DNA of 64,000 nucleotides, taken from the NCBI GenBank assembly GCA_019787685.1, contig JAHNUO010000012.1, forward strand, positions 1,582,688-1,646,687, read 5' to 3'. Shown here piece by piece: positions 8,521 through 31,856 of the stretch. How positions within the stretch are numbered: the first letter of the stretch is position 1; every line of letters begins with the position of its first letter. The translations under genes and the position numbers were made by a program. The stretch comes from Chiua virens. Taxonomy: Eukaryota; Basidiomycota; Agaricomycetes; Boletales; Boletaceae. The notes below the pieces were generated by a model, which worked only from the letters and a program-made list of their open reading frames with translations, ran no database searches and was not told where the DNA came from.

Positions 8521-8526
8521 TCAAGG

Positions 8527-8617: not shown

Positions 8618-9101
8618 ATGTTTGGCAAATCAACCATTTTCGTCACCGCGCTCGCTCTTGCTGCCGCCGCTCTTGCTTACCCCGGGCCTGGGTTTAAGTG
8701 CCCCGTTGGATCCCCCCAGTGCTGCCACAGCTGGCGGGACGTCGGTACCTTTGAACCCGGCATGATGCCCCCGCCTGGCCTGCCGGGTTTTGACCACGGG
8801 ATGCCGGACGGCCTTGTCGGGTTTGCTTGCAAGACTGTCGATGATGGCATGACTTGGTGAGTCACGTTTTCGCCATGAAGACCTTCGCTTCTGATCAATT
8901 TCATAGCAGCGGGAACGCATCACCACTCTGCTGTAAGCTGAATGACTACGGTAAGTGATACGAAGGCCTCTTCTTCGCTGAGCTATTGAAACCGATACTT
9001 ACCATTTTATAACAGGAGGCATCCTTACATTTGGGTGCACCGAAGTCAAACCCGCGTATTACCCACCCAAGCCTTATTACCCACCCCAACCCACATATTA
9101 G
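8618..9101 (+). CDS. hyd3: class I-like hydrophobin, subfamily B, with Tyr/Pro-rich tail
   Basis: Predicted secreted hydrophobin of 122 aa. Exons are 8618-8856, 8907-8950 and 9016-9101. A signal peptide covers about residues 1-20 (ALA|Y). The core between the CC pair and the fourth cysteine is unusual for the family: rich in Pro, Gly and Met (FEPGMMPPPGLPG, then FDHGMPDG), where subfamilies A and C have aliphatic/Ser/Thr sequence. The fifth cysteine codon is split TG|C by intron 1. The acceptor is ambiguous (CATAG or CATAGCAG, a 3-nt choice that keeps frame). After the last cysteine the protein runs on for about 20 residues with repeated YYPP motifs and ends in PTY. Its closest relative is hyd7, which lacks this tail. 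Confidence 0.88.
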
Positions 9102-11290: not shown

Positions 11291-11295
11291 CGAGG

Positions 11296-11303
11296 TATAA
11301 ATA
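11296..11303 (+). promoter_or_regulatory. TATA box of hyd4
   Basis: TATAAATA inside CGAGGTATAAATATGG, 80 bp before the hyd4 ATG, with the CCCAACACAACCTCAGCCAG block following. Confidence 0.75.
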
Positions 11304-11382
11304 TGGCCTACCGTGCAGATCGTCAACCCAACACAACCTCAGCCAGTTTCATCACTTCCTATTCTACTCATCCCACACCATC

Positions 11383-11850
11383 ATGTTTATCAAAGTAAAC
11401 ATTGTCGCAACCGTGCTCGCATTTGCTGCCGTCACTCTTGCCGGGCCTACCAACCTCCAGTGTGCAACTGGAGCCCCCCTGTGCTGTCAGACCTTGCAGG
11501 ACAACCAGGTCGCTGGTCTTGTCGATACCGTCTCGTCCGCCACGCAGGGTACTATCGTCCCCGAAGTGTCCCGCACCAACCTTGAGGGCCTCGCCCGCTC
11601 TTTCGGATATGCGTGCACCTCTGTTGGTTCCAACGGTGCTTGGTGGGTTACAGTTTTTATCATCGTGATGGAGAGCTTCATTGTTGACCATATCGATAGT
11701 GCCGCTGCCACACCGGCGGTCTGCTGTCAATTCAGCGCCTTCGGTAAGTAATGCAAAGAGCTTTCTCCGATGCCCCGTTGACTCAGACATCGATACTTAC
11801 CATCTGTGATACTAGGCGGCATCGCTGCGTTTGGATGCGCCAAAGCCTAA
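11383..11850 (+). CDS. hyd4: class I hydrophobin, subfamily A
   Basis: Secreted hydrophobin of 112 aa, almost the same as hyd1 (same length, same cysteine spacing, GPTNLQC start of the mature protein). Exons are 11383-11642, 11700-11743 and 11816-11850. Intron 1 (11643-11699, 57 bp) splits the fifth cysteine codon as TG|T and is open in frame, coding a hydrophobic stretch if retained. Intron 2 is 11744-11815. The last exon ends IAAFGCAKA. Similarity to hyd1 extends at least 120 bp past the stop, so the two are a fairly recent duplicate pair in opposite orientation. Confidence 0.92.
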
Positions 11851-12532
11851 TTTTTTCTCGGATATTTATATGTAATAATGGAGGGTCGTGGAGAGTTGGA
11901 TTACCCGTGGTCATTATGTTTGTCCTGGATGTAGTCGTTTGCTGAATGCACATCTGACTCGTCTGGAAATCATTTGAGTCGCATCTACAAGATATTTGAA
12001 CACTTGCTTGAAATGTCTGTTCGGAACTAGGGTGAACCGTAGCTGTTCAACTGGTGGCACTGCTGACGGGCATGAGTTATTATCAGTATCTTCTCATTCT
12101 GAATCACGATCTCCGTACCTGAGACGATACAATCACTGGAACGAGCTTGAATGCCGTTCGAACCCGGCTTGGGCAACTCGGAGTCCATACACCTTTTGCA
12201 AGGGTGTTAATAGTACTCCGCATCTACAGCTAAGAGAGTGGATGTCCTCGGTACAGTGCATACCAGAAACCCGAGTCGTTGAGCGGTTCCAACATGAACG
12301 AAAATAATGATAGTAGACGCTGAACGTAAAGTGATATGATATGGCATAATGGCATCGCAGTGCATTGAATAATCTGCAGGACGGACGGACGAACTCGAGT
12401 GCGTCGACATCGTGTAATCAACTCATCAAGACTTTTTCTGTGTCCACAATTACAATTAGTACTTGCGGAAATCTCCTTAACAACGTGGAGATTAAGGCGT
12501 CACCGAGATTGTTTTCGTCGCAAGGGGCCGTC
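11851..12532. other. hyd4 3' flank and left half of the interrupted hyd5 upstream module
   Basis: The first 130 bp is the shared hydrophobin 3' flank. From about 12,100 the sequence is upstream-module material: CCAGAAACCCGAGTCGTTGAG at 12,260 resembles 36,336 and 4,094. From about 12,415 to 12,540 it matches, block by block, the module seen at 31,510-31,640 and inverted at about 34,200-34,350. It breaks off exactly at the KDZ element end. No gene was seen. Confidence 0.55.
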
Positions 12533-12540
12533 CAACTGAC
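12533..12540. repeat. Left 8-bp target-site duplication of the KDZ element
   Basis: CAACTGAC, repeated exactly at 28,084-28,091. Eight-bp duplications are reported for the Zisupton branch of the KDZ superfamily. Sequence on either side joins into a continuous copy of the hydrophobin upstream module. Confidence 0.75.
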
Positions 12541-12554
12541 ACCTGTATCTGACA

Positions 12555-12860
12555 CTAACTTGCAGAATTCATGGTAACTACCGTCACCATGCTTGCAAGA
12601 TATACGACAAAATATGCTACGGTGATCCTGGTGTGCATCTGCCCGCCGCATCCTGCAAGATGAATGAGCCAAACTGTTTGCAAGATCCCCGCATGCACTA
12701 GATTCGTCTTGCAGGATGAATCAGCCCTGGAGCCTGCAAGATTAATCGCGCATTACTGGCGTGCTATGCTAGACATCCACTCTGCATCTTGCAAGATGAA
12801 TTTAAGTCACATTCAAGTTGTGCAAGACTCGGATGCTAGTGCCACGGCCACGTTTTGCAA
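12555..12860. repeat. Left subterminal TTGCAAG motif array
   Basis: About nine copies of (C/T)(C/T)TGCA(A/G)(G) in roughly 300 bp, on both strands because the full form TCTTGCAAGA is palindromic; several are followed by ATGAAT. This is the density expected of transposase-binding subterminal repeats. The matching array is at the other end of the element. Confidence 0.7.
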
Positions 12861-12959
12861 GACCCCCACAAGCAGGGAGGGGAGACGCGCTGTGTTCGTC
12901 TCCTCCCTACAACTCCGAGTCGCCCCTTCCTACACTACCCTTGCCCTCCCTTCAACTCT

Positions 12960-13310
12960 CCCTTCACTCTCTCTTCGCCTCACATGACGACCGTGACGAC
13001 GACGATATCGTCGTCATCATCCAACGCCGTGCCTCGCCTCGCCTACTTAGTACAACGACGCCACTTGCCCTCGCGCCTTCACCACCCTTCGCCTTCCCTT
13101 CACCCCTCCACTAACCTTCCGGGTTCTCCCTCCCCTCCTGATGACAACGACAACAACAATGCGATAACTGTATAACACAGATATCGTGTCGTCGTTATCG
13201 TCGCATCCACGGACTCGTCCCTTGCTCTTTCCTCGCCTTGCCTGACGACAACGACGATGACACGATATAACTGCGTTATATCGTGTCTTCGTCGTTGTCG
13301 TTGTCGTTGT
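12960..13310. repeat. CGA/CGT triplet-rich tract with a long hairpin
   Basis: Low-complexity tract of repeated GAC/GTC triplets inside the KDZ element. It contains a near-perfect inverted repeat at 13,245-13,271 and 13,275-13,301: 27-bp arms, one mismatch, 3-nt loop, with CACGATATAAC at the tip. A shorter palindrome, GACGACGATATCGTCGTC, lies near 12,997. Reading frames through the tract (for example 12,818-13,175) are Ser/Thr/Pro low complexity and I do not call them genes. Confidence 0.6.
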
Positions 13311-13545
13311 CACTCGGTCTCGTCTTACATCTCGCCTGGCCTCACCCTTCTTCGCCCTCGTCTCTCTCGCCTGACGATGACCGCGACGACAACGCGATTA
13401 TGACGCGTTCGTCTGTGCTTCCATCTCACCAACCTTGAGCACACGCAGGAAAAAATATTTGAAGGGAGAGCAGTCGAAACAGGGTATACAATGCAGCTAA
13501 TTTCTAAGTATCATGTTGCATGTAGAATTACAGATGTAGTAAGCA

Positions 13546-14490
13546 CTAATCCTCCTTCTTGAAGCTCTGAACCAGCTGAGATCTAGATGTCTTCTGACGC
13601 TTTGCACGCTGAGGTTGGCCTGAGGGTCCAGCAGCATTTATCAGTTTCGAGTCCGCTGGTCGCTTAGATGGCAGCGGGACTCTCGTTCTTAATTTCATTC
13701 GAGCCTGACATAGATGAAGAAATTTAAGTGTTATATCACGACCGTCAGTAGTTGGTAATACTTACTGTCGAAATATTAACATCTCTGTTGTTCGCTCCCG
13801 CTGGCAAACCCGGTGAGGGGTCCGAGTCTGAGGAGGGAAAATCAAGTGGTGGCGAGTCCTCAGGCTCCTTGATGTTGTCGTGAGCAGAAGGGTGTACCAT
13901 ATCACAAGCAGTGACACGTACGCGTTGATCCGAGCCGGTAGTAGCTCTGTTTTCAACGGTAGCAGCCTGTGCCGGTGACCCGGATTGAAGGGACAATCGT
14001 ACCATTTAGTACATTCTACATAATCGCTATACATTAGTCTACTCACAGGGCGTGCCAGTGCCGGGATTGCAATATTCCCCGGGGTAGAGGGTATTGAACC
14101 CGGCGGGCCAGAAGATGGCAGACTGGAACTGGGATCGTGAAGGGACGGTGTTGGCATTTGGGCTGCTGGGTTGCGCACATTCGGTGGCCTTCCCGCCGGC
14201 GTGTGGAAACGGAAAGTCTACGTAGTGCGGGTGGGTTAGCTACAGTAACAGAGAGTGCTTCACTCACCACTGGTCCATTGTGACTGTAGTCACAGGTTAA
14301 GGAAACGGAGTGAAGGCAAACGCTACGGGGTATGATAACATCAATTACGGGCCCGCCAGGTGTGTAGGGAATTGACATGGTTAGTGCTCTTACAAAAGAA
14401 ATATGACGGATTGCACATACCGGCAGGGATCTTGATGCGGTAGAATAGATATAGCATTGGAGTTTCGTTTTCGTTGTTATTGGATACCAT
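13546..14490 (-). CDS. KDZ-element accessory protein, nuclear-type, 239 aa
   Basis: Five-exon model: 14421-14490, 14268-14386, 14047-14217, 13766-13966, 13546-13704; total 720 nt. The start is MVSNNNENETPML. An N-terminal region of about 90 residues includes VIDVIIPRSVCLHS and is followed by a Pro/Ser-rich middle (GPPGSIPSTPGN), an acidic stretch, and a basic tail (PQRAKRQKTSRSQ) that looks like a nuclear localisation signal, ending SFKKED. The first intron is short (34 bp), so that junction is the least certain. The gene lies directly downstream of the KDZ transposase on the same strand, inside the element. I do not recognise the family; the position suggests a transposition or regulatory accessory role (inference). 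Confidence 0.55.
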
Positions 14491-14664
14491 CGCAGCTGGT
14501 CCATCACGATACGTACCAATACAATGTCTTGCAAAATTATCAGTCGAAGCTTCTCTTCTGCATTTACATACAATCTACTTCTCCCGCCGAAGCACTCACA
14601 AATCACAACTTCAACCTTGAGAAGCAACTGAGGCGAAATGAATTAAAATTGGAAGAAACTTGAA

Positions 14665-17600
14665 TCATGTCATCGACACGTCACTACTGGTAACAGGATC
14701 AACGCCACTCCCAATCTCGATGTACCTGCGTGTGTTCCGCCAGACATGCACAAAATGCTGTGCCAAGTCAGCCCTGAGTGCGGCCTGTCGCAACGCATAC
14801 GCCCTTAAGCCCTCCACGAGTGCCATATCCTCTGTTGTAACAAGGGACTGCTTCTCTGACCACCATTTCGACTGCCATCTAAGGAATTGTAAAATGCACT
14901 GCTGTTCTTCCGCCAACAACTCAACCTCCTCTGCCCAACGATGTGCACGAGCACGGGCTTTTAACCACTCAATGCGGAGAGCTAGATCAATAACAGATGA
15001 GTGCAAACTAGCAGATAAACGACCGGCATACCATCTTGAAGCCCCTCTTCTCCATCCTCTTCTCCTTCTCCACATGTCAGCCAAATCCAGGAGACTCGCC
15101 TGCGACCCTCACTTTGCCGTTCCTCAGTTCTGGCCGTCATCGAGCGTATGTCTTCATCAGCAAGAGGGCGGAGAGAGTTTTGCCAACCAGTGTGAGTCTT
15201 CTCTAATAACGGCGACAGTGTAACCATCGCTTTGTATGCCGTGCGGTACTTCATAGCGGCAGCCTTTACCTTAGAATCTACGACTTTCAGAGAGTTTCGG
15301 GCACGTGTATTAGCACCTTGACCACGTAAGAAACGATCTTTGAAGCGCAGCATGTACGCGCGAGAGCGCAGTGCCTGGCGGAGTTCTGTAAGTGCGTCAT
15401 GAGCTTGACCATAACGAAGATTCCATTCGATATCTTGGAGTCTAGTGTCGCATGAAACTTTGCGTGGAAGAGCGGATGGTAGCCAGAGACGAAATTGCTC
15501 TGGCTTTCGGGCAATTACGGGATCCGAGTCGAGTGATTCTTGGGCTCGAAGGGAAGTGACAGCTGGAATATACAGAGTCTGAACAGCTGCCCATGCGTCA
15601 ATGCGATTCCTTAGGCCATTGCTACGCTGTTGGAGTCTTGTATTCTGTTGGTCTGTACCGCGGAGACGAACTTCTTCAATATCACTGTGAAGTCGGCGTC
15701 TTTCAATCTATGTATTAGGCTGACAGACGTAGTGAAAAAAAAGAAAGAGAGCAAACTCACTGTTGTCCCTCTAATTCGAGCCCTGTACTGATAAGAACAC
15801 TTGGCGAGATGTCAGTATGGATAGGTGGTATGTCCGACGCAGCGGCTTCAACGGCTTCGTCCTTTGCAAGCCGCAGTTGTACGCTTGCTTGCGTTACCGC
15901 TAGCACAGAGTTAGTTAGGATAATTGCTTGCCTGAAATGCACGTACAATTAGACTTGACCTCAAATGGGTTAGGCTGCGACGCATCCTGCTCCCATGCCT
16001 CTACCTGCTCTCTCCATTTGGCCAATTGTCCACCGTATCGCCCAGTGAGAGAACTTTCGAATTCTTCCAAGTCTTCTTGATGTTCATTTCGTTCTGGAAC
16101 AGCTTCGACGAGCTTACGGAGAATGGTGGTTCCTGGGTTCGGATCATCATCACTATCTTGCAAGACGAGCTAAACTCTAATTAACTTACCCAAACCAATG
16201 ATTTTTTTCCAGTTGCTATCTCCGATCAGGTCGTCAAGGGTGTCACGACGATGTCCGGGGCCCATTTCCTTCGTACTTGACGCCACTGGGTTCAGTGTTG
16301 ACCAGGCACGCTCGGGTGCTTCACCGTCTGTTCGAGCGACCCCTCTGATATAGTTAAACGAGTATTTCCACTGACATTCTGTGACATGGGCGGGGAGATG
16401 AAATTTTGGAACAAATGACCTAACTTCGATGTCGTGGTACGGCAAGTGGAGTGGACGTGGGAGTGTTTCCATGCGTTGCCACAAATGCCGCATCCATTGG
16501 CATACGATATCATATGAGATGTTGAGTACCTTAATAGAGTTGTTATTATGAACTGCAGAAAAAAAAAGATAGTCCATGTTAACGTATCTTAAATGCCGAG
16601 GGAGTTCAAGTTAATCGGTGATCTGGAACATTTAAGAAGGTTCTCACCGTTCTCCTTTCTGTAAATCACCTACTGCTCCCGGTAGCTTCATTTCATGACG
16701 GGCACAGCAGACGCTGCCCACTCCAGTGGATGCGAGTCCCACTACCGACTTGGTATCTGCATTATTGACGGCGTTGTGGCTCATGCAAGTGCTTTTCTAA
16801 AGAGAGATTCAGATATTAAGTATTTCGAGCCTGAAGGAAAGCAGAAATACCTCTTGTCGTGTATCAGAGTGTTCTGAAATATATAACTTGTATGACAACT
16901 CTTCGACAAAATACGCCCATCCTCGGCTGAGACTGGGATCAATTGCATCCTTGGACACCGACCTACGCTTGAGACGGAAGTTGGCATCAATTGCCACAAA
17001 AAGAGCGTAGAGCCACCTAAAGGACTATGAATTAGACGAATGAATTAATGGGTAGGAACTTACTCCTTGTCTTTCGGAACCTTATCCCAGTTTTCGGGAA
17101 GATTCTTTCCAGGCTGTGGGCATGCAGGACAGAGAACCGCACAATCGCCCTCCCGTGTGCCCTCTGACCCTGTAGGATCATGCCCACGCCCACTCCTCTT
17201 CAACATCTTGAGGTGGCGCCATTCGCGAACGATACGCATAAATTGCTCGTAACGATCCTGTGAGATGAAATCATAGAAAAAACATTCAGAGTAGAAAAAC
17301 CGAGACTAACCTTCACGGGATACAAGCCTGTGTTATCAGTATGACGAGCGAGCGAGTTATAAAAATGATATGCGGATGCCTTGGACTCGAGCGAAAGGAT
17401 GTGATATTCCTCTAGAACCCTGAAGGTAGCCACCGTGCGTGGCTTGTCTGCACTTGCAGGGAATAACCGGCAACGAAGAAGTTGCTGAACTACGGTACCA
17501 GCTGATTCGCAGCCGCAGAAACGGAGCATAACGGAATGTATCCCGTTGCTGTCGATGATGACGAAGTCGTCCGAGTAGGGAGCTCTGGGCAGACAACACA

Positions 17601-18380
17601 GTTGTCCACTAGTGTGTCCCAGTTGTATGACCAGCCCAAGGGTCTTGAGTGGAACCCGAACCCAATAAGACCCAGACCATTCCTATGTGCAAGTCAGAGG
17701 TGTCAAACGAGAATTACCGTTGGCTGAACAGCCCTAACCTTCACTATATGGAGCGCCTGTGTCTCGTGCCTTGCCAGAAGACATGGCTTGCAGTACAGAT
17801 CTAAAGTCAGACAGTCGTCGCAACAGTAAAGTGCCGGTTTGCTTTTGCAGAGAGAGCAGACCGTCACACCCCGCCGTCCTTCTAAACGAATTAGTTCGTG
17901 AAGGAACGTGTCACGATGGTGCTCCATCCAGACGAGGAGAGGGAAGTCCTGCATAACAATTTAGATCAGCAGAGAATGTGCGCGAGGCCCGAACGCGACG
18001 CAAACCCTCACTGATGCAGTCCGTTGCCTTGGTACATCATCCGAGTCAAGGATAGAGAGATCCACATCATCCGGGAGGCGATCAATGCAACTAGGATGAT
18101 TATCGGTGGCATCCAAAGCGAAAGTGGGTGGTACTTCTTCTGGTCCCAGGCCAGTTGTCGCATTAGTGGGTACATGGTAATTTTTCTTCACAACGCGTAA
18201 TGTCCCAGACGTATCTGACTGGATTTTATGGTGATTCCCGGTATGTATGTGAGGTTTTCCATAGGATTTTCCATGGAGCTTGAAACCACGAAGCCGCTTG
18301 AACTGTGGTCCAGCGGTTTCTGAGTGCGTATGGTTGACTAGTACGAAGGCAGCAGGAATCAATCGATCACTCACCACCAT
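14665..18380 (-). CDS. KDZ transposase with N-terminal CxC2 zinc-binding region
   Basis: Multi-exon gene. The order of recognisable blocks matches agaricomycete KDZ transposases: an N-terminal segment (18,380-17,961); a cysteine cluster with HRDTFLHELIRLEGR, CSLCKSKPALYCCDDC and CKPC (about 17,700-17,950); GLYPVKDRYEQFMR (about 17,270-17,340); LYALFVAIDANFRLKRR (about 16,960-17,010); MDYLFFSAV and the hallmark YDIVCQW (about 16,500-16,580); FHLPAHVTECQ and KYSFNYIRGVARTDGE; then a coiled C-terminal part ending near HFVHVWRNTRRYIE. Introns include 14982-15031, about 15712-15770, and a 33-bp one near 16,157-16,189. Every junction I resolved keeps frame, so the protein looks intact. The first exon may lie further upstream. 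It cuts and inserts the element (established for the family by homology). Confidence 0.85.
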
Positions 18381-18489
18381 CCTGTGATCCTGTGTGAGAT
18401 AAACTCATCGTATACTGGTGGTAGGCACAGAGTTATGGTCCTTACGGATCAGGCTCTTTGAAGTTAGAGTCGAATATCTTAGTTTTGCA

Positions 18490-18810
18490 AGAAACTTACG
18501 AGCTGGGGCAAACGCCGACATTAAACACGATTGAGGGACATCATGATAGGCCCTCCCCTGCAGAGCTGAAAGCCATGACAAAGCCGCTGTACAGGTTAGA
18601 AGCTTGACGCACTTACTAAATGTGCCGTCACGGTTATCAGACTCGGTCATCGTAGAACTGGGGGGCAAACGCCGACATTAAGCATGATTTGGGGATATCA
18701 TAGGTCCCCCCTTGCCGAGCTGGAAACCATGGAAAAGTTACTATACAGATCAGAAGCTCGACTTACTAGAAGTGCCGTTGGTATCTGACTTGACTTGGTC
18801 ATTGTATCAT
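18490..18810. repeat. Tandem duplication of about 165 bp upstream of the KDZ transposase
   Basis: The segment about 18,499-18,660 and the segment about 18,657-18,810 are diverged tandem copies; both contain GCAAACGCCGACATTAA and end in GGTCATCGTA or GGTCATTGTA. On the minus strand each copy carries an ATGACC start followed by a GTAAGT donor after about a dozen codons, so each could supply a short leader exon for the transposase. I could not join either cleanly to the next exon. Confidence 0.55.
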
Positions 18811-20150
18811 TGAACCATAATTTCGACTCAGACATTCTCCTCTTGCAAGACTTCGCTGGCTGCCAGTGGCTTGGTCATCATGCCGGCACTGAGGAGTCTT
18901 GCACAACTCGGTGTCGACCATGATACTATGTAATGTGTAGAATCTCACATATGATATAGCGGTGTTAACTACCTTTCCTTGCACAGAAAATTTTGCTCCA
19001 AGTTCAAATGCCACTTTCATACAACATACCGACCACAGCTTGGAATAATGAGACAAACCGCCGGACAGATTATCTCTGTGTCACTGTTGATTGTAAGTGT
19101 CTGATCACCGTGACAGTCAATTCTGAAGTACTACCCTATGCATGTAGCTCTTCTTACTGACATACGTCGTGCAAGCATTCCATTAGAGTATGCAAATGCT
19201 CTTGTGGCCGCGATCCGACTTCGTGCAAATTATCCCAACCAAACTCTCGGAGGTATTTTCCTTCCTCTCATGTCTTTGTATGGGGAATGTTCTCACCCAT
19301 AGCTCCTACTAACCAGCTCAGCATCCGCTCATTCCCCCATGGAATATGAATATAGCTGTGCCGTCTGGCCATGAGCTCATACAATATAATGGATTCACGT
19401 ATGTCCAACCGAGTATAACCTACTCCCACTCCAAATGCTACATAATCACTCGTGGGAGGGTTGTTGGTGTATTCGTGCATTGGTGAGTCTCTGTTCTTCA
19501 TAGTACTTACCAGGTCCGATGATCTGATTCACGCTTAGGACTAACACGGCGCCTTTCGTTCTTGGTGTTAGCGGAGCTGTCTTTGAGAAGGTTGAATCGG
19601 TGGAAGTGGGCTGCTGCCTCATATTGGATGCAATCGATAGTAACACTGTCATGTATATCGACTCGGACCAACATGTCTCGTAGTTATACATTGTTCAATT
19701 GACACCAACTCATTCCGAAGCTCCTCCTCGTTATTGTGACTTGCACTGAGTGAATCTGGGACCTTGGATTGGTGCGTCCTCAGTATTGTGCTCCTTCCAG
19801 TGAGTATGTGCATCTTGGCGATTCGGAATTTCCTACACCATGCACATAGTACAATTACACTGGCATGCATTCCTTGCAACACCCAGGACCTAACAAGTGT
19901 TCTTATCTGCGACAAAGTGTGCTAAAGTGTGCTAGGAGTAAATCTCCTATGACATTGTGCATAAAGAATCCAGAAGCTCCACCACGGTTGGTACGGCCGC
20001 TTACTTCCCAGCCTTATTCTCCCATTTCGAACTTACATTAACTCACTCAAACCTGTACCTTTGTATCCACCAGTTCCAAAGTCCAACTCCCCTACGAGTA
20101 CGACTCGGCCCAAGTTGAATGGGAAGGCCAAAGCTGTATGTCACTCCTGA
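18811..20150. other. Probable coding region of unresolved strand inside the KDZ element
   Basis: Both strands show open, intron-punctuated stretches. Plus: SIPLEYANALVAAIRLRANY (about 19,175-19,235), IPPWNMNIAVPSGHELIQYN (about 19,330-19,388) and FVLGVSGAVFEKVESVE (about 19,555-19,605), each bordered by plausible splice sites. Minus: a frame at 19,268-19,501 with VAFGVGVGYTRLDIRES and one at 19,649-19,915. I could not build one complete gene on either strand and do not recognise the protein. I looked for a TET/JBP dioxygenase, which some KDZ elements carry, and saw none. Confidence 0.3.
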
Positions 20151-20160
20151 GGAGAGAATA

Positions 20161-20990
20161 ATGGCTGCTCGTTCATACCGAGCAAAATATTATGAAAAGT
20201 ATGTCTTCACCCTCTTACACTTCTGCCAATGACTTATTCGTATTTCAGAAATAAGGATGCGATCAACAAGAAGCTTGTGGGAAAGTGTAAAAAGGACAAG
20301 TTACCTAACAACACGGTGGGCTCAGGCTTGAACTTATCCCTGCTCCGTGATCAGATCAGCTCATAGGCCATTGCTCACAGGGAACCAGACATGCGACACA
20401 TCCTACCGAGATCATTGGGGAACCTACATCAAGAAATAAGATGTTACTGCGCCGGTATGTGCAACATCTTCCGTCAACTTCTGCTCTATCTCATTGCTTA
20501 TATTCGACTTTCCAAGTGCTGGGCGGCCAAGGAGCAACCTCAGAAATGACCAACCGACTCATTCAAGTTCGTCAGTCAAGTATCAGTAAGTTCCTACTGT
20601 ATTTACACATTGTTAAATTAACCCACATACATACTTAGTGATTCAGAGACTAGTATCGAAGTAGCGCTCAAAGAAATCATTGGGGGGTCCTCTCGTGAGC
20701 GGATGCATGTTCTCTGTCAGCGTTTCATTGCTTCAGGGGACTATCATGAGATCTCTCACACTCATGACCTAGTTCAAGCACTCGATAAACGTATTCGAAG
20801 TTTATCATCTCCCAGGTGGTCAGAAAGTGGGATTGATGTCCCTGACAGTCCGATCACCCAGGCCGTTCAAACAGTCGTTAAGGCCTTGGAGGACCTTCTG
20901 CTGAATGCCATGGAAGGCAACAATCTGAGCGAGTTCGTACAAAACCACCGTTTATTGTACCAAGTCGCTCCTGATGTTATGTTACCATAG
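20161..20990 (+). CDS. KDZ-element cargo protein, hypothetical
   Basis: Spliced gene with a basic N-terminal block (MAARSYRAKYYEK, then NKDAINKKLVGKCKKDK after an intron) that looks like a short DNA-binding or nuclear segment. The middle contains SHCLYSTFQVLGGQGATSEM, and the C-terminal exon (ending 20,990) contains RERMHVLCQRFIASGDYHEI and a helical tail. The true start is probably upstream, because YVTPEERI precedes the ATG in frame. The splice at about 20,586-20,639 is one nucleotide out of frame with the most obvious donor; a weaker donor a few bases upstream would restore it, or the copy is frameshifted. The function is unknown. Confidence 0.45.
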
Positions 20991-21730
20991 TAGAATTTGA
21001 TCCAATGAAGGACAAATGAACGTCATCGTACAATCAATTAATCAACATCAGATACAAAACCACCTAATCAGAAGTTTGGAATTCACTCTTATGGGTTAGT
21101 TTAATGCTGAATGCCAGTGTGTCACAGGCCTCATATTCTTGTGCTGAAATCACATCTCGTCACTTCACGAGATCTTGACTCGATTGGCATGGTCAGTTCG
21201 GACCAGCGTTGTCAAGGTCAGTTCGGATCGGCGTTATCATGGATGGTTCGGATCGGCGTTATCATGGACGGTTCGGATCGGCATTATCATGGTCAGGTAA
21301 GGAATGTGTCCGGTTTGTTATTGGGACTTGTTGAAAGAAGTCAAATGATCTAGCTACCATGTCGTTGTCACTCTGAGAGATTGGTTGATTGCCAAATAGA
21401 TCCTACATCCTTTATAGTCATGGTATGTGTGGTTCCTTCTCAATCTCCCGTTCATTGTACTTTCAATTTATGCGCCATTCTCTTGCAGTCCCACCCAACA
21501 CGTTCAAGTTGTTCTAGTCACAGTGACCCTTCTTGCTATCTTGCTATCCTACGTGTCGTTCTTCACCCCACATTCACCACACGCATTATCCTTGTTACTC
21601 TACGCGTCATCTTCCCCCTATTTGATTGGCACATTCTCCACTGGCGTCTGGAGCTCAATTCCCTGTACGAAAAAAATGTAAGTATTCTGGAGAGCTTTGT
21701 GGTACATAGACAAATCTTATGTCAGAATAG
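20991..21730. other. Spacer with four 25-bp tandem repeats
   Basis: No gene was seen. 21,191-21,290 holds four 25-bp units based on GGTCAGTTCGGATCGGCGTT with a few differences. The rest is T/C-rich sequence leading into the next gene and probably serves as its promoter. Confidence 0.55.
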
Positions 21731-24104
21731 ATGCCAATAGAATGGACAACGAAGGAGCAGAAGGCTTTTCTCATCGAGGAATTGCCTACCTTCAAGAAAA
21801 TCGGTGGACGTCAATACGCCCTGCAGTGGCCTGACCTCTATAACCGGTGGTTCAAGAGGTGGTCAGAGTGCACACTGGCACTACCAAACGTTCCATTAGA
21901 TGCGACACTAACTCAGCAAGGTGACATCCTTGCCAAGGCTATCGAACGACGTCAGGCACAGCTTCGCCGCTGGTTGCAGTGGCGTTCCGGGCGATACACC
22001 AACCGTGCTGCTAACAACAAGACTATGAAGATTATCGATCGTCTTGTGAAGCCGAAGACTCGTACCAAGAGGCCATGGGAGATCTATTCAAAAATCTATT
22101 ACTCGACACGCGTCCAACCAAAAATTACAAGTGGTATGGCTATTGCTGATGTTACTCGAAAGATTCGCGAGTCGTACGAAAACGAGGCGCTCGAGATCAA
22201 AGAAGAGATATGGAAAATTATGACCGAGAACAAAAAGGTCAAGAAGAAGCGAGGGAAGGCAAGTGCGAAAGATACTAAACAAGGGGACGGCGACTCTGAG
22301 AGCGATGCGGACGACGACGACCCGCTCTCACGTCGCAAGTGAGTCCTGTATATCATAATATTGCTACTAGCTAATGGCATTGTAAACAGTTACATTGAAC
22401 AATGTGGTCCTGCACTTCAACGCATCCTTGAGCACCTCAGTAGCCAGACCGGTGGGTGGCATTTCAGTGTCTTGATGGGGGGGCCCGATCCTTTGGACAC
22501 TACCGGCAATCTCATTACGAGGTCAGTGCTTTCACTTTAGTGTTGACTGTTATTACTCATCTTAGGCCACTCATATAGCCTTCACGTCGGGAAGACAAAT
22601 GATGGTCGTGACTTCTCCGACGTCTACACTGACTTCGACACGATGGTTGTAGCAATGTATGGTGAGTACTTGGGGAAAGCTTTAAGTGAGCCTACGTCTC
22701 CCCATATGATAGCGATCATTCCCTCACCATCGCTACTCAGACAATATGTCCTCTCTGCCTGTGCAATTACCCAGTGCTGGCGGCGGAGTCGATGGAGAAG
22801 ACATTGACAGGGATGACAAAAAGGACGACAGAGCGGAAAAGGATGATCAAGACCACAACGACGATAGTGAAGGAGAAGAAGAACCTATCGAGCAGGAGAC
22901 AACAAAGGTCATTGATGGAGGAGAGAGTTTCCATTCAGATGGAATTTATACCACTGCCCCTCCGATGACGCCACCTCATCTTGCAAGCTCCCCGACCGCT
23001 CGTCTTGTAAACTCGGTCCTTTCCACGACACCACCCACCGCACATCTTGCAAACCCGTCCATTTCTTCCATGCTCCCGACCGCTCATTTTGCAAACTCAG
23101 CCCCTTCCGTGACATCACCGACCGTGTATCCTGCAAGTTCGCCTGTTTCTTCTGAACTTAATCATCTTGCAAACCTAGCCGTTTCTGGGACACCACCCCA
23201 GCCAGCTGCATATCTTGCAGACTCGTGCGGACCTATCACACTACCAGCCATTCCGACTCGCTTCGAAAGCTCATCTATTCCTACGGCACTACCGACCATT
23301 CATCCTGCAAGTTCGACTGTTTCCGTCGTATCGCCAGTCGGTCATTTTGCAAGCTCGCCTAATTCGGTTCCCGTGGATCTCGCAACATTGGGTTTTGCGT
23401 CAACTATCCCAGAACTTGCAATGTACTCTGGTTACCATGATGTGACTCCGAATTCCACAGCCACCGTGACATCGATTGATCCCACACTGTCTATCCAATC
23501 GGATCCATTCTGTGGCTACTTTTCGGCCATGCTCAACAATCCTTCCCTGGAATCTATTCTCAATGACCGCTCATTGGAAAGCTGGCCCGGAGTGTTGGTG
23601 GGCACAGGATTAGGTACGGGTCAACCCATGACGTACAGTAATCAAGGCCTCATCTTTAATGACGCACACGGCACTCAAGTACAAGACAATTTTGCGATTC
23701 CTATGAGTGTGTCCGGGCCCATCGCTGCGTCAATGGAACCACTGCACCCCCTGTCCATACTAGATCCACGTTCAGCACCCAATTCTCCCCAAACAGGACG
23801 TCTTCCACCGATTCCGGACACCATCACCAACGTTACTCTAGCTTCACCCGGGCGATCGAAACGAAAGTCAAGGCCTTCTCAGCGTGCACAGCGTGACAAT
23901 GCTATCGGCGACTCTTTCAGTAAAGAGAACAACGTCCTGCCACCAGGAATCAATGGTTTGAAGAATGCGAAAGTCAAACAAGGGAAGGGCTCACAACATC
24001 CTGCGGATCGTGGGTCGCCGAAAAAGATGACAGTGAGGAACAGTAAACGGTCGGCCAATGCTGTCGAGAATGATGCCGATTCAGCACCACTGAAGAACAA
24101 GTAA
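21731..24104 (+). CDS. KDZ-element cargo protein of about 728 aa, nuclear-type
   Basis: Exons 21731-22338, 22390-22521, 22579-22661 and 22741-24104 give 2,187 nt in frame. The N-terminal part (QYALQWPDLYNRWFKRW; ARRQAQLRRWLQW-like) is followed by a Lys-rich and acidic stretch, then a conserved block (YIEQCGPALQRILEHLSSQ, GGWHFSVLMGGPDP, LHVGKTNDGRDF). I recognise this type as a hypothetical family common in agaricomycete genomes. The long C-terminal half is acidic, then Ser/Pro/Thr-rich with an approximately 15-residue repeat (HLAS, HLAN, HFAN) and ends with basic patches (SKRKSRPSQRAQR). A further splice at 24,101-24,143 is possible and would replace the last residues. The function is unknown; it was probably carried by the transposon. 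Confidence 0.65.
22978..23360 (+). repeat. In-frame TTGCAAG-type repeat inside the cargo gene
   Basis: About nine copies of CAT(C/T)TTGCAA or a close variant, spaced roughly 40-60 bp, all in the same reading frame and coding variants of H-L-A-N/S. The core is the same TTGCAA motif that fills both element ends. The coding repeat is therefore either a chance use of the element's own binding motif or an internal extension of the binding array. Confidence 0.6.
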
Positions 24105-24254
24105 GTTGTTCAGCTCCCCTTGTTATGTCCGTTGTTCACTCAGAAGAAAAGGAAACGCAAGGTTTAGACTTTGTGCGGATAGTCGCCCCCTCCTTGTGAC
24201 ATAGCCACAGATACCTGTTTGTGATGTAGTTAGGATTTTTCGTGCTACGGAGTA

Positions 24255-26769
24255 CAGTCGACTCCCTTGTAACCCATACCCCTTATAACCCATACTCCCT
24301 AATAACCCATACATTTTCCTGACTCCCGAGTTTGTTCGCAGTAAATTCTGACCAAACCCCATACCCCATACCCCATAGCCATTTGGATGGTGATAACCCA
24401 TATGTCACTGTATCAGAAAGTGCCAGGATTATATAACCAATGTATTTTCTTCATCCCAACATGGCAATAATGACCCAACTCTTCAACATGAAACCTCACG
24501 CTGTCATTCAGCTTCTAAAAAAAGGCCTGAAGAAGCTTCGAGATCAGACCCAAGACCGTAAAGTGAAACTTGAAGCCAATTTAAAAGCCAGTCAACCCAT
24601 TTCAGAAGCTGACGAAGAATGGCTTGATGGTGCTGGGAATTTAGTGGACGAAGAACGACTGGTTGACAAGCTGGAGAAAGCTTCAGATTACGAAGGCACT
24701 CTTGAAAAACTAGGTCCACAAGACCAAGCCATCATGCAAAAGTTGACAGAGCTCAGCAATGGTTCTGTTGCTCCTTTGAAGAAGCGCCAGCGTAGGCTTG
24801 ATGAATTTCAGCCTCCAGATTCTAAGTGACTCAAATTATATTTGCTACAGGTCCTGGACAGGCTACTGACACGACGGACGACAGGGCAAAGCCCACACAG
24901 CCCAAAGTACCCCTGAAAAAAGAAAATGCGACTCTTGAACAGCGCATTCAAATTTTGGACTGGCATCACAAGAATGGCAGGAATCAGACCCGGACTGCTG
25001 TGCATTTCGACAGGACCTATCCTTCCCTTCAACTCAAGCAGCCAAGGATATCTGCATGGTTGAAGCAAGAGGCTGTGTGGCGAGCAGAGTATGAAGCTAC
25101 TGGGAGTCTGTCTCGTTCAGCCAAACGAGTCCGTCAGACACTCCATCCGGAGGTTACTGAAATGTTAGACCTTTGGGTCTCAAAGGCATTGGCAGACGGT
25201 CTCTTACTCACGGGTGAGGTGCTCCGCCAGAAATGGAAGACATTCGCTGATCTCGCTGGCGTGCCAACGGATGAGCAACTCAGTCTCAGCGATGGGTGGC
25301 TGAGTCGATACAAATCACGAATTGGCTTGAAGCAAATTAAACGCCATGGCGAGGCAGCTTCTGCACAGCCAGATGTTGTCAACAAGGAGAAATTACGCAT
25401 TCAGATGTTGGTCAAGGATGGTGGCTATGTACGTCGTGACATTTTCAATGCAGATGAGACTGGATTGTTCTATGCGTAAGTTCTCTTCCCTTCTTTGTCA
25501 AACATCAGCCTCAATTGTAAACTTGAACAGTATGCCCCCTGATCGAGGACTCTGCGACAAACAGCAGGCAGGTGTCAAGGGGAAAAAGAACAGGTTGACC
25601 TACTTGTTCACGGCGAACGCGGAGGGTTCCCAAAAGCTCCCCCCGCTCATTATTGGCAAAGCATACAAACCACGAGTGTTCGGAAAGAAGACAGGAGCTC
25701 AGCTTGGTTTTGACTATCATAGCAATGGAAAGGCATGGATGACGTCGGCCATCTATCAAGAGTGGCTGAAATCTTGGGATGCAGAGCTCAGACACGCCGG
25801 TCGCAAAGTCCTTCTTTTACAAGACAATTTTTCGGGGCACATTGTGCCTGATACTCTCACCAACATCCGCGTCGAAAACTTCCAGCCGAACCTGACAGCA
25901 CACGTTCAGCCCAACGATCAAGGTATTATCCGGTGTTTCAAGGCCCACTACCGCGGGAAGTTCATTCACCGTGCCATTGACCTCTATGAGGCTGCTGTCA
26001 CGCCGTCGCAGGTTTACGAGATCGACCAGCTGGAGGCGATGAAGCTTGCCAATGAAGCCTGGAATGAGGTGGATACGACAGCGATCCGGAATTGCTGGCG
26101 CAAGGCGGGGATCTTGCCTGAAATGAACACAGAAGTCCACTCAAGCCCTTCGATGCCTATTTCGTCACTCGTGCATGCTGCTGCTGATGCAGACACTCTC
26201 GACAACCCCGTTTTACAAGTCGAGAAGGATGTGGAAAGTGCACTTGATGCCCTCGAGTCGACTGGAGTTCTCCAACGCTTTAATCGAATGGACCTTTCCG
26301 AGCTTCTCAACCCTGCTTGCGAGGTGCACAACATGTTTGACGCAACCGACCAGGAGATTTGCGATGCTGTCATGGAGGCGAAGAAGGCTCACGAGGGTGA
26401 AGACAGCCCCGGCACCGACACGAGCGCCCCATTTGATACACCTCCGACACGGAAAGAAGCTTTGGAAGCAGTTTATGTGTTGCGCAGGTACTTGATGGAG
26501 ATTGACACTCACTTTGCTCGCATGTTGGAGACGATGTTGGGTAGGTTTGGTCGCGAAACACGTACGTCGGGCATGCAGAACATGAATAATACCAAGATTA
26601 CTAGCTATTTCACTCGTACATAACACCCTTGCATTATCACTAAGCTAGCAGAGATACATATACGAAAATTTGTCCTGTAATTAGTGACCTGTCGTATACC
26701 CCATACTCTCCCATAACCCATGACTTACGACGACTCCCGAGGGGGTATGGGTTATAAGGGAGTCGACTG
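24255..26769. mobile_element. Complete pogo-type transposon nested in the KDZ element
   Basis: 2,515 bp, flanked by TA on both sides (24,253-24,254 and 26,770-26,771). Terminal inverted repeats of 28 bp (24,255-24,282 and 26,742-26,769) differ at one position and begin CAGTCGACTCCCTT. Subterminal sequence holds further ACCCATA repeats at both ends. The transposase gene inside has an uninterrupted reading frame after splicing. Near-identical ends and an intact gene indicate a recent insertion, later than the KDZ element it sits in. Confidence 0.93.
24440..26623 (+). CDS. Pogo/Fot1-type DDD transposase
   Basis: Exons 24440-24791, 24851-25475 and 25531-26623 give 2,070 nt, 689 aa. The N-terminal part is coiled and charged. 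From about residue 140 there is a CENP-B/pogo-type helix-turn-helix (TLEQRIQILDWHHKNG, RISAWLKQE), then a second CENP-B-type DNA-binding region (LDLWVSKALADGLLLTGEVL, WLSRYKSRIGLKQIKRHGE). The DDE catalytic domain shows the expected acidic residues: FNADETGLFYA, LLQDNFSGH and QPNDQGIIRCFK, so the triad is DDD. The first intron uses a weak GTAGGC donor but restores frame. The C-terminal tail is not conserved. It catalyses cut-and-paste movement with TA target duplication (established for the family). Confidence 0.92.
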
Positions 26770-26771
26770 TA

Positions 26772-27064
26772 TACAGTACAATGGTGATTTAGCTACAGAT
26801 ACCCACTGCCTTGATGTAGCTACAATGGTTTTATGCTATGGAATGTGCAGCTGTTACCCGTCTGAAGCGAAGCTACGGACTCTATCACCATGTCCCTATC
26901 CCACATCCACGTGCCACTGAATGAAAGAAATCAATATGTTAGCAACAGAAAAGCGGGAGTGATACGGAGAAACATAGGACTTAAATACCAGTAGGAAAGC
27001 AAGTCGTGATAACGATAGATGGTGGTCTGACGAAACGTGCGATAGCGAGAGCAAGGTGTCAGAT
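26772..27064. other. Right-hand KDZ sequence between the pogo element and the motif array
   Basis: About 290 bp without a gene, resuming the KDZ element after the nested insertion. I see no repeats or sites beyond a few short palindromes. Confidence 0.4.
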
Positions 27065-28075
27065 GATGGGGCGGAATCTTGCAAGTTTTCATCTTGCAAG
27101 AAGCGTGATAGTGAGGGTAACTGGGAGGCGAGCGGCCCATGCAATCCTGCAAATCGTGCGGTAGCAAGACATAGTATGGTAGTATCTTGCAAGAAGCACG
27201 GCAGTGATGCGCCGGCTGGGAGCCTGGGAGCAACTGGGGGGCATCACGGGTCTTGCAAAATCGCGAGGGTACGGTATCAGTCGTCGAAACTTGTAAGTTG
27301 CATCTTGCAAGAAATACGGTAGTGAGGGCGCCTGGGGGAATGACGGATCTTGCAAAGTGTGCGAGGGGCGAGGTAGTATTGGTCGTCGAAACTTGTAAGT
27401 TTGCATCTTGCAAGAAACATGGCGGTGAGGGCGGCTGGGAGCCAGGGAGCAGCTGGGGAGCATGATGGAGTCTTGCAAAATGGACGGTAACGAGGGCAAG
27501 TTATCAGATGGTGGCAACTTGCAGGTCAGGGTCTTGCAAGAAACGTGACAGTGGGCGACTGGAAAACGACTGGGGGTCCGGGGATATGACGGATCTGCCA
27601 AACATACGGTAGCGAGGCCAACGCGTCAGAGGGTGGCATTATGGCGGCTGGGTTTTGCAAAACGCGCGGTAGCGAGGGAGAGAGCAGTAGCTAGGGCGAG
27701 ACATCAAGTAGTGTGGCGTGCCTTGCAAGTTGGGGTCTTGCAAGAAGTGCGACAGTGAGGGCGGTTGAGAAACGATGGGAGACGTGATGGATCCTGCAAG
27801 ACATGCGGTAGCAAGGGCGAGATGTTGGATGGTGTGGTGTTGTCTTGCAAACTAGTGTCTTGCAAAACGTGCGGTAGCGAGGACAAGACGTCGGATGGTG
27901 TTATCTTGCCTTGCAAATTAGGGTCTTGCAAGAACTTGCACGACGGAAGGCGGTTGGGGAGGGATGTGATGGACCTTGCAAAACGTGCGGTAGCGAGGCC
28001 TCGAGGTTGATTATCGTTACTCTTGCAATCCTTTCTTACGATGACCACCGAGATAACCTGCAGGATACTTCCAGG
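27065..28075. repeat. Right subterminal TTGCAAG motif array
   Basis: About 25-30 copies of TCTTGCAAGA or close variants over 1 kb, commonly followed by A(A)(A)CGTGCGGTAGCGAG, with a loose higher-order period of roughly 90-120 bp. Open frames on both strands run through the repeats (for example 27,089-27,601), and their repetitive Ser-Cys-Lys content follows from the motif; I reject them as genes. Together with the left array this marks the ends of the 15.5-kb element. Confidence 0.75.
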
Positions 28076-28083
28076 ATGGCCTG

Positions 28084-28091
28084 CAACTGAC
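28084..28091. repeat. Right 8-bp target-site duplication of the KDZ element
   Basis: CAACTGAC, identical to 12,533-12,540. The sequence that follows (TCAAATAGAGTAACC) continues the hydrophobin upstream module broken off at the left side. Confidence 0.75.
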
Positions 28092-28408
28092 TCAAATAGA
28101 GTAACCATTTTTTACCATTTTAGATGCCATGCATGCCCGTGAGCCGAACGAGTGTTATCCCGGACCGTGGACGGTGATACATATTTTGTAAAGGCGGCAT
28201 CAACGTTTCAACCCCTGATAATTGCAAGTAGTTCGCCACATGAGAATCTGGCATGGAGATTCGAGACTAACCATAATGTTGTTCTATTGCTCTAGGCCAC
28301 AACATACGGTGCCTGAGATCTGAGATCTGAGAGTCCACAAATGACATGTAGCACTGCATGATCTTTCAAAGTTATTGCTTCTAGTGAGGCTCAGTCACTC
28401 CGTCAAAG
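28092..28408. promoter_or_regulatory. Right half of the hyd5 upstream module
   Basis: Copy of the module also found before hyd6 (about 29,575-29,800) and inverted at about 34,050-34,180. Shared blocks include AGAGTAACCATTTT, CGAACGAGTGTTA and CAACCCCTGATAATTG. It is the promoter-proximal part left attached to hyd5 after the KDZ insertion. No transcription-factor site can be named. Confidence 0.5.
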
Positions 28409-28416
28409 TATAAATG
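28409..28416 (+). promoter_or_regulatory. TATA box of hyd5
   Basis: TATAAATG inside GTCAAAGTATAAATGC, about 95 bp before the hyd5 ATG and followed by CCAACACAACTCC. Confidence 0.7.
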
Positions 28417-28503
28417 CGACCTACCTCAGCACGTCGTTCCAACACAACTCCAACCAGTTTGATCAATTCCATATTATAATCCCTTCTCCTTGTCTTGTCC
28501 GCC

Positions 28504-29017
28504 ATGTTGATCAAATCAAACGTGATCGTGATCACGCTCATGCTTGCTAGCACTATTCTTGCCCGGACCAAACCTGAGTGTGAAACCAATTCCTTCCTGT
28601 GCTGCGAGACCTTGCTGGCTGTCAACACTGTTGAGAAGATTATCTCGCTGGTGCCGGGTCTCGGCATGGCCCTTTCCGGCCTTACTGGGCTTGGCGGGAG
28701 TGTTGGCATTACTTGCAAACCTGCTGACGGCAAAATCTGGTAGGTCTCATCGTCCACCATCAAGATTCTCGGTTCCGATCAAATCCATAGCGATGCACCT
28801 ACAAAAGGTGTCTGCTGTAAAAAAAACAGCTCCAGTAAGCACTCTTCAATGCTCCATTGACGCTGGTGCTTACCATTTTGTAATAGAAGGCATCATTGCC
28901 TGGGGATGCACCCCAGCCAGCGCCAGACCCGCCAACCCCACCACACCACTCGCCGAGAAGCCTGCACCTTCCCAGATCATTTCCGTTGAATATATTGGAG
29001 ATTTAGTCTATCCGTGA
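28504..29017 (+). CDS. hyd5: class I hydrophobin, subfamily C, long C terminus
   Basis: Predicted secreted hydrophobin, 136 aa. Exons are 28504-28739, 28791-28834 and 28887-29017. A signal peptide covers about residues 1-20. The core reads CCETLLAVNTVEKIISLVPG and GLGGSVGITC, the aliphatic/Gly-rich pattern usual for class I hydrophobins. Intron 1 splits the fifth cysteine codon as TG|C; unlike the A-type copies it has an immediate in-frame stop (TGG TAG) if retained. After the last cysteine (AWGCTPA) the protein runs on about 40 residues, Pro/Ala-rich, which is long for the family. The KDZ element lies about 420 bp upstream and separates this gene from most of its ancestral upstream region. 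Confidence 0.88.
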
Positions 29018-29879
29018 TTATTCGTGGCGAATGTAGTCGTCATCTGAATCCCCACATTTGATATGACTTTCCCCTCTGAACCGCCGAGTGCCTCAACGAA
29101 GGTTGGGTACCAGAAGGCCTGACTTGCGGTACACAAGCGTGCCACTGATCTGCGACCGGAACATAATCATTCTTACCCTGCTAAAGTTTCCTATTCACTG
29201 AGAGTCTGAGACTGACCTCCATAATATTGATGATCAACTACCTTGTCACGTTCGCAACTACAAGAAGTCATTACTCTCCTTGCCGCTCGCGGCTTTGTCA
29301 TTGATCCTAGCCACATAGGCACGGCCTCATGTAGATACACCCACTCCGAGTTACAGGCTCGTAAAGAGGGGTAGCTAGATAATATCAAATGTCAGCGCTT
29401 CAGCTAAGCCCAGGTCGCCGGACTGCATTGGCACTCTGATTGGTGCCATTTGAAACTTGCCCCTCAATGACCCCATCTTAGTTTTACCGCTCTAGTCAGA
29501 GCTGTGGCTAAGTAAAACTCGATAGGTACGGTCCTGCTGTTGTGCTCTGCGACGCTTGAACCACAATGGCTCAGATAGAGCAACCATTTTAGGTCGTGTG
29601 GATGCTCCACAACGAGCCGAGCAACGAGTGTTACCCCGGACCGCATGAATCATACTACATAATTCGTAAAGGCAACCGCATCAATGTCTCAACCCCTGAT
29701 ATCTGTGAGTACGGTACACGGAGGATCTAGTACCTGGACCAACCATAATAGTGTTCTATTGCTCGACCGTAGTAGGCCACTGTGATGACTGAAACCCTGA
29801 GACTATAAATGGCATATATCACTGCACGGTTTACTGAAGTTAAGTATTGCTTCCGCAAGGCTCAGGTAGTCGATCAAGG
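29018..29879. other. Spacer between hyd5 and hyd6
   Basis: No gene. About 29,500-29,800 is a copy of the hydrophobin upstream module, including CTGTTGTGCTCTGCGACGCTT, found also near 10,870. The rest is diverged spacer. Confidence 0.5.
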
Positions 29880-29887
29880 TATAAATG
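29880..29887 (+). promoter_or_regulatory. TATA box of hyd6
   Basis: TATAAATG inside ATCAAGGTATAAATGC, about 82 bp before the hyd6 ATG. Confidence 0.7.
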
Positions 29888-29961
29888 CAACCTACCGCAG
29901 TGTCTTCATACAACCTTGGCCAGCGTGATCAGTTTCAGTACTATAATCTTCTTTTACTGTC

Positions 29962-30391
29962 ATGTTGATCAGATCAAACGTCGCAACTACGCTCGCAGTT
30001 GTTGTCACCACTCTTGCCCAGATCAGTCTTCAGTGTCCAACTGGTTCCCCCCTTTGCTGCGACAACTTGCTGGATGCCAACACCGTTAACTCGATCATTA
30101 TCTCGCTCGCGCCGGGTCACGGCCCGTTCCGTGTCGGCGGCAGTGTTGGCATTACTTGCAACCCCATCGGTGCCAACGTCTGGTAGGTCACAATTTTCAT
30201 TAGTAAGAACTTCATTTTTCATGAAATCCGTAGCACTGCACCAGCAAAAGCTGTCTGCTGTCGAAACAACAGGTTCCGTGAGTGATACAAAGATCCCTTC
30301 TCAGATGCTTCATTGACACGGTACTTACCTCATGATAGAGGGTATCGTTGCCTTAGGATGCACCCCAGCCACTCCACCCACAGCGGGATAA
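29962..30391 (+). CDS. hyd6: class I hydrophobin, subfamily C
   Basis: Predicted secreted hydrophobin, 105 aa. Exons are 29962-30182, 30234-30277 and 30339-30391. A signal peptide covers about residues 1-19 (TLA|Q). The core is CCDNLLDANTVNSIIISLAP, then GGSVGITC; it is shorter than in hyd5 and lacks the second Gly-Leu-rich turn. The fifth cysteine codon is split TG|C by intron 1 (30183-30233), which begins with an in-frame stop when unspliced. The C terminus is GCTPATPPTAG. It is the closest relative of hyd5 and lies next to it in tandem, so the pair probably arose by local duplication. Confidence 0.88.
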
Positions 30392-31848: not shown

Positions 31849-31856
31849 TATAAATG
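31849..31856 (+). promoter_or_regulatory. TATA box of hyd7
   Basis: TATAAATG inside GATCAAGATATAAATGG, 94 bp before the hyd7 ATG; the following CCAACACAACCTCAGCCAG block is conserved. Confidence 0.7.

Follow-up and report, generated by a model that had tools for sequence, protein, structure and literature searches.

The window analysed here is a stretch of 64,000 nucleotides of the Chiua virens genome (C12:1582688-1646687). It contains a 15.5-kb element with a KDZ transposase gene on the minus strand, a divergent partner gene (gene B) on the plus strand, arrays of a short palindrome near both ends, and a second transposon nested within it. The features are as follows, by window position.

12533-12539, unstranded: left target site duplication CAACTGA (7 bp)
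12540-28083, unstranded: the element in full, 15,544 bp from CACCTGTATCTG to CAGGATGGCCTG, with ends common to its relatives
12563-12862, unstranded: left subterminal array of CTTGCAAG-like palindromes (first 1.3 kb: 2 exact, 7 with at most one mismatch)
14668-18404, minus strand: KDZ transposase gene of several exons, with Pfam KDZ and CxC2 matches; exons kept in five relatives
16173-17024, minus strand: KDZ catalytic region (Pfam KDZ)
17203-17682, minus strand: open frame with the CxC2 cysteine cluster, a candidate DNA-binding part (PF18803, E 3e-43)
20622-20990, plus strand: short conserved reading frame with third-position bias against two relatives
21731-24103, plus strand: partner gene B, 728 aa, conserved in five relatives and a second family, with homologues in Chiua and Pisolithus
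21731-22338, 22390-22521, 22579-22661 and 22741-24103, plus strand: gene B exons (our own splice model)
22979-23421, plus strand: cluster of TTGCAAG motifs within the coding sequence of gene B
24255-26769, plus strand: nested pogo-type transposon, 2515 bp, recognized by Pfam hits, inverted ends and relatives that have no insert
27077-28029, unstranded: right subterminal array of CTTGCAAG palindromes (last 1.3 kb: 9 exact, 22 with at most one mismatch)
28084-28090, unstranded: right target site duplication CAACTGA (7 bp)
28504-28740, plus strand: initial portion of a hydrophobin-like gene, whose ATG is about 420 bp past the element's right end
34177-34225, minus strand: uninterrupted paralogue of the insertion site, from alignment of the joined flanks

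An earlier, sequence-only reading of this DNA had placed a KDZ transposon at 12,541-28,083, between two copies of the 8-mer CAACTGAC, and had proposed as a check a search for further copies that share its ends but differ in their 8-bp flanks. The 8-mer is indeed present on both sides (12533-12540 and 28084-28091). We searched the organism's own assembly (48.3 Mb, 136 contigs) and found, at unrelated sites, six copies with two ends (the window copy included) and a seventh left end; copies are named below by contig. The left-end DNA query (12541-12900) matched seven genomic places, each from the first base of the query, and the right-end query (27701-28083) paired with six of these left ends, its matches stopping at base 383 or, in one case, at 382. 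Flanking DNA was unlike at each copy's place. A KDZ transposon with definable ends and copies with seven left and six right ends in differing flanks were thus borne out by the relatives, but the left end and the length of the duplication were not. The base preceding ACC(T/C)GTATCTGAC is C in all seven copies, so that the element starts at 12540, not 12541, with CACC. The final C of the supposed left repeat is therefore part of the element, which leaves a duplication of 7 bp. The base following the right 7-mer is C in two of the six copies (the window copy and C3b) and T, G, T and A elsewhere. The 7-bp duplication is exact in five of the six two-ended copies, as follows.

Window copy, 15,544 bp: CAACTGA/CAACTGA
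C3a copy, 20,744 bp: CATGTAG/CATGTAG
C1 copy, 14,048 bp: GCTTGGA/GCTTGGA
Second C12 copy (minus strand), 15,389 bp: GGATTGC/GGATTGC
C30 copy (minus strand), 18,167 bp: AGGAAGC/AGGAAGC
C3b copy, 35,584 bp: ACAACTG/ACGACCG, 5/7, both mismatches being CpG transitions

The termini are CACC..CCTG in five of the six copies and CACC..CCTC in the C30 copy, whose 3' end, TC rather than TG, counts against the reading that we favour. The seventh place, on C32, has about 536 bp of the left end followed by a gypsy-like stretch to the contig end. No clear terminal inverted repeat was found in the window copy, in agreement with the earlier reading: the best local alignment of its 60-bp ends scored 13, and 500 shuffles had a median score of 12.

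The earlier proposal that an empty insertion site can be read from a paralogue in the same window also held. When the flanks were joined, they aligned across the junction with the minus strand at about 34177-34225, scoring 53, whereas none of 300 shuffles exceeded 23. Outside the site, a 200-base scan of the window gave this paralogue as the best place, with a score of 34 near 29401-29501 as the runner-up. An empty allele would read as a single CAACTGA followed by CTCAAATAG. A second and independent empty-site case is provided by a related element, F3 (C12:1045740-1057495), which sits within a repeat whose copies on C6 and C16 are uninterrupted at the site. F3 is flanked by GTCCCAG on both sides, and both 7-mers map to the same seven C6 positions, as judged from match coordinates rather than letters. 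Read with this duplication, F3 runs from CACCCG to GCCTC. Its exact ends are uncertain to within one or two bases, so that the duplication could be shifted or 6 bp long, which counts against the favoured reading.

The KDZ gene carries a KDZ domain (PF18758, 137.7 bits against a cut-off of 26.6, E 5.8e-40), an N-terminal part of KDZ (28.4 bits, E 1.7e-6) and a CxC2 cysteine cluster (PF18803, 146.8 bits against a cut-off of 27); its outer limits and splice joins are inferred. We take the codons at about 16986-16988 (IDANF), 16509-16511 (SYDIV) and 16311-16313 (PER) to be the putative catalytic D, D and E. Among the relatives, the five single-exon KDZ peptides contain one stop in each of C1, C12, C30 and C3b and none in C3a, and longer frames that reach into introns contain at least one stop in every relative; the pieces of the window copy were picked as open frames, and are hence open by selection. 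The core of two divergent genes, CxC2-KDZ on the minus strand and B on the plus strand, is common to all six two-ended copies. A stretch of about 360 bp at 18440-18800 is present in the window copy and C3b, is unaligned in C1 and C30, and is not in the C3a and C12 matches; it holds an imperfect 120-bp direct repeat (18505-18628 / 18662-18778).

The sequence-only reading had also attributed cargo genes on both strands to the element. The plus-strand DDE_1 gene proved to belong to the nested transposon, which has 28-bp inverted ends (CAGTCGACTCCCTT...) with one mismatch, a TA duplication at 24253-24254 and 26770-26771, and frames matching HTH_Tnp_Tc5 (4.5e-11) and DDE_1 (5.9e-39), that is, the TA duplication, inverted repeats and DDE_1 domain with Tc5-type HTH of a pogo (Tc1/mariner) element. 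The site is empty in five of five relatives compared, which read GAGTATAC; in the window, the insert lies there with TA on each side. Since pogo is absent from these relatives, the claim of cargo on both strands falls, and the candidate cargo transposase was rejected as a later nested insertion. Once the nested pogo and one TA are subtracted, the native unit measures 13,027 bp; it consists of the KDZ gene and its divergent partner, perhaps with the short third frame, and has no cargo in the usual sense. Differences in copy size were likewise considered as cargo and rejected, the extra stretches looking retrotransposon-like: by a reading of their translations, made without a Pfam run, they are Ty3/gypsy-like in C3a and Ty1/copia-like in C30, with gypsy-like pieces in C3b and C32. 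The extra stretch of C3b is 21 kb long, and its gypsy-like pieces account for part of it only.

The KDZ domain above its curated cut-off and the CxC cysteine cluster place the element in the KDZ superfamily. Kyakuja elements have been described as lying between 7-bp duplications and ending in CA..TG without inverted repeats, and Zisupton and a Dileera family as having 8-bp duplications (Kojima 2025, PMC12730594, in the portions available to us). The 7-bp duplication, 5'-CA..TG-3' termini (5/6 copies) and lack of terminal inverted repeats found here are those of Kyakuja, and the eighth base, which agrees on both sides in only 2/6 copies, departs from the 8-bp duplication of Zisupton and Dileera. 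Kyakuja membership is argued from these three structural features and, indirectly, from the transposase, three of whose five KDZ frames match a TET+ KDZ element of the same genome at 42-47% identity. Very probably, then, the 15.5-kb element is a KDZ DNA transposon of the Kyakuja type, with no TET/JBP gene detected. The correction from 8 to 7 bp matters since one chance base can misplace an element's lineage if a single copy is read. The precise bounding of such an element had been thought rarely documented; its ends can be fixed here, but base-precise Kyakuja ends had been published before, for TET+ families at least, in the text and Figure 1 legend of PMC12730594. Membership of this family would be ordinary, and what appears to be new is the family-specific arrays and the partner gene, with a putative role in recognition.

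No TET/JBP gene was found in the elements: none of the 23 genomic PF12851 matches lies inside the six copies, and TET/JBP cargo was rejected as far as this profile shows, a far-diverged TET type being able to escape it. Many of these 23 matches lie within a few kb of KDZ matches. A TET+ KDZ family has copies on C5, C10, C12 and C25, and the two that were read (C10:938697-953857 and one on C25) measure 15.2 and 17.1 kb, with exact 7-bp duplications (TTTGTAG; GTCCCGT) and CA..TG ends. These ends agree with the report, in the available part of PMC12730594, that Kyakuja alone was found among the TET+ transposons of Boletales.

The TTGCAAG arrays noted in the earlier reading are real, with 62 matches in the window against 10.3 expected and none of 100 shuffles reaching 62. 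A count of all 256 palindromic 8-mers over the terminal 1.3 kb at either end put CTTGCAAG first in six of six copies, with 11-20 occurrences (window 11, C3b 11, C1 19, C3a 17, C12 20, C30 20) against at most one for any other. In both copies read of the TET+ family, TGGTACCA came first, with 18 and 22 occurrences against 6 and 5 for the runner-up, and CTTGCAAG was absent; the length of the TGGTACCA array differs between these two copies. In F3, whose protein B is 57% identical to that of the window element, the terminal 2.6 kb contains the core TTGCAA 20 times (12 left, 8 right) and the full CTTGCAAG twice, both on the left. An exact-pattern test worked for TGGTACCA, with 110 forward matches against 1 for the control; among the matches listed, all but one (C5:189015) fell within TET+ copies, on C5, C10 and C12. 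An extended 12-bp array motif was left unused, as it was symmetrical by construction, both strands having been counted. A 57-bp imperfect palindrome, 91% identical to its own reverse complement, lies inside the element near its left end (13245-13301).

Gene B was modelled with four exons, the third junction differing from the public model of a relative. The first exons show third-position bias against the C1 and C30 relatives and the long last exon shows little; the latter is poorly conserved, at 55-63% in four relatives. Protein B, scanned in pieces, gave no Pfam match above cut-off, and its predicted structure was unusable (AlphaFold pLDDT 33, pTM 0.19). The first exon of gene B has 17 matches at 16 loci genome-wide, and a divergent KDZ match was found within 15 kb at 13 of these 16 loci, against about 1.3% expected per random locus. 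The loci are not all independent families, six coming from the window element's family and three from F3, and the 83 KDZ loci used for the pairing were merged by eye from 124 KDZ matches. Of the B loci without a close KDZ match, one has none within 25 kb and two have one at 15.1 and 22 kb. Outside Chiua, homologues were found in Pisolithus only (4/6 hits), by searches that used short exact words and scored part of the candidates, which makes the absence outside Boletales weak. The short frame at 20622-20990 has no Pfam match at E 0.1 and may be the final exon of a small third gene. The TTGCAAG motifs at 22979-23421 recur in HLANS-like coding repeats of gene B, and this internal cluster is possibly an internal binding or autoregulation site.

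From these sequences, we infer that the subterminal palindrome arrays, and not inverted repeats, are the recognition sites of the element. Each Kyakuja family would mark both ends with an array of its own perfect palindrome (CTTGCAAG here, the TTGCAA core in the sister family and TGGTACCA in the TET+ family), to be read by the CxC2 part of the KDZ transposase, the divergent partner protein or both, and the palindrome would change as families diverge. We give this reading a probability of roughly 0.5. As a DDE-type nuclease, the KDZ protein would cut the element out and insert it elsewhere; the subterminal palindromes, in place of inverted repeats, would direct either this protein or protein B to the ends, and protein B would be a factor of transposition or regulation rather than cargo. 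To our knowledge, end recognition by KDZ elements without inverted repeats has not been described. Pairs of a family and its palindrome would offer a directly testable answer to how such elements find their ends.

The arrays might instead be transcriptional control sites or passive satellite expansions, an explanation that we regard as distinctly less probable, though the strongest of the alternatives. Right arrays vary in length among copies, being longer in several relatives, a behaviour resembling that of tandem repeats, and TTGCAAG clusters also occur inside the coding part of gene B. In addition, the pattern CTTGCAAG-N40-70-CTTGCAAG has 27 hits genome-wide, of which 7 lie in the C30 copy and none in the other five copies; the remaining hits comprise 16 in a further repeat family, for which no KDZ match lies within 15 kb, and 4 single ones. 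The exact-pattern specificity test thus failed for CTTGCAAG (7/27), and the occurrence of its pairs beyond the window element's family speaks against recognition by arrays as well as for a regulatory or satellite origin. What argues against such an origin is that each copy read has the same palindrome at both ends, that an internal array of the TET+ family uses another unit, and that the TTGCAA core is common to F3 and different in the TET+ family. In the other repeat family, the CTTGCAAG pairs lie about 7.6-10 kb apart (C24:314250-321898, C25:136900-144568, C28:360334-370800 and C45:30413-38140), and this family also occurs on C30.

It is somewhat less likely again that protein B serves the host as captured cargo and stands outside the transposition machinery. 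The lack of an above-cut-off Pfam match in the pieces scanned, the fast-evolving last exon, the TET+ copies on C10 and C25 without a B match and the B locus without KDZ within 25 kb would suit captured cargo. These points are opposed by the divergent pairing of B with KDZ in two families and several weaker loci, by the third-position bias of the first exons, which is consistent with purifying selection, and by the finding of homologues in Boletales only (Chiua and Pisolithus), in searches of limited sensitivity. Finally, a KDZ element at 12,541-28,083 with a Zisupton- or Dileera-like 8-bp duplication and cargo genes on both strands is highly improbable, since, although CAACTGAC does flank the window copy and 8-bp duplications are reported for Zisupton and a Dileera family and for Cryptococcus KDZ1 (accessible text of PMC12730594 and PMC12810828), the relatives refute it in these details through the constant C ahead of ACC, the eighth base agreeing in two of six copies, and the empty pogo site.

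Returning to the probable Kyakuja-type element with its palindrome arrays, the history of its copies can be partly read from their divergence. Over 12,953 aligned bases, 321 of 384 substitutions between the window copy and C3b (C3:2427956-2463539) are CpG transitions, the CpG being kept by the window copy in 302 and by C3b in 19; the other 63 differences amount to about 0.5%. The bias is weaker in other pairs (C1/C3a 160/222; C1/C12 234/335; C3a/C12 220/303; TET+ pair 80/151). With C3b as the decayed copy, the divergence of the window copy and C3b suggests that decay is linked to methylation in an Agaricomycete. At the CpGs that C3b has lost, the 5' neighbouring bases roughly track their background, so that this decay does not look like the TCG pattern described for Pucciniomycotina in the available text of PMC12730594. 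Section 4.2 of that article states, citing another paper, that hypermutation is not detected in Agaricomycetes, and the pair is of interest as a largely CpG-confined divergence in that group. Because its CpGs are nearly undecayed, the window copy was probably inserted recently.

The window copy would have landed about 420 bp upstream of the hydrophobin-like gene, and pogo would have inserted later, between gene B and the right array. The hydrophobin-like piece at 28504-28740 matches Hydrophobin with 17.1 bits, below the 23-bit cut-off. Repeated diverged blocks occur on both strands of the window (1809-2537, 5222-5890, 8490-9149, 11258-11954, 28141-28919, 29614-30371, 31809-32463 and 38934-39184) and, by eye, look like a hydrophobin gene cluster; when three single pieces were scanned, Hydrophobin matches below the cut-off were obtained for two and none for the third. 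A direct duplication of about 420 bp, 83% identical, was also seen at 34869-35282 and 35373-35792.

KDZ elements were reportedly first described by Iyer et al. in 2014. Plant En/Spm (CACTA) transposons resemble the window element in that a short motif forms dense arrays near their ends, to which a protein of the element binds, and in having two element proteins; they differ in the length of the duplication (3 bp), in their short inverted repeats and in their transposase, which is unrelated. The TET+ KDZ family of the same genome shares the 7-bp duplications, CA..TG ends and a palindrome array at both ends with the window element, from which it differs in its palindrome (TGGTACCA, with CTTGCAAG absent), its TET/JBP gene and its lack of a B match. 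Kyakuja-1_LB and Kyakuja-2_LB of Laccaria bicolor, as presented in the available portions of PMC12730594, have the same 7-bp duplications, 5'-CA..TG-3' termini, absence of inverted repeats and KDZ transposase, but carry TET/JBP genes, whereas the window element has no PF12851 match and has protein B. In the main text of that article, the word "subterminal" is absent and the single use of "palindromic" concerns the borders of TET/JBP genes; a literature search that covered few subscription papers yielded nothing on subterminal arrays in KDZ elements. In Pleurotus, CxC2 precedes intact KDZ elements, according to the accessible text of PMC7641404. The Cryptococcus elements KDZ1-KDZ3 resemble the window element as large fungal KDZ elements of about 9-11 kb with a cysteine-cluster domain, but differ in their inverted repeats of 139-241 bp, their 4-8 bp duplications and a CxC1 rather than a CxC2 cluster (PMC12810828, available text).
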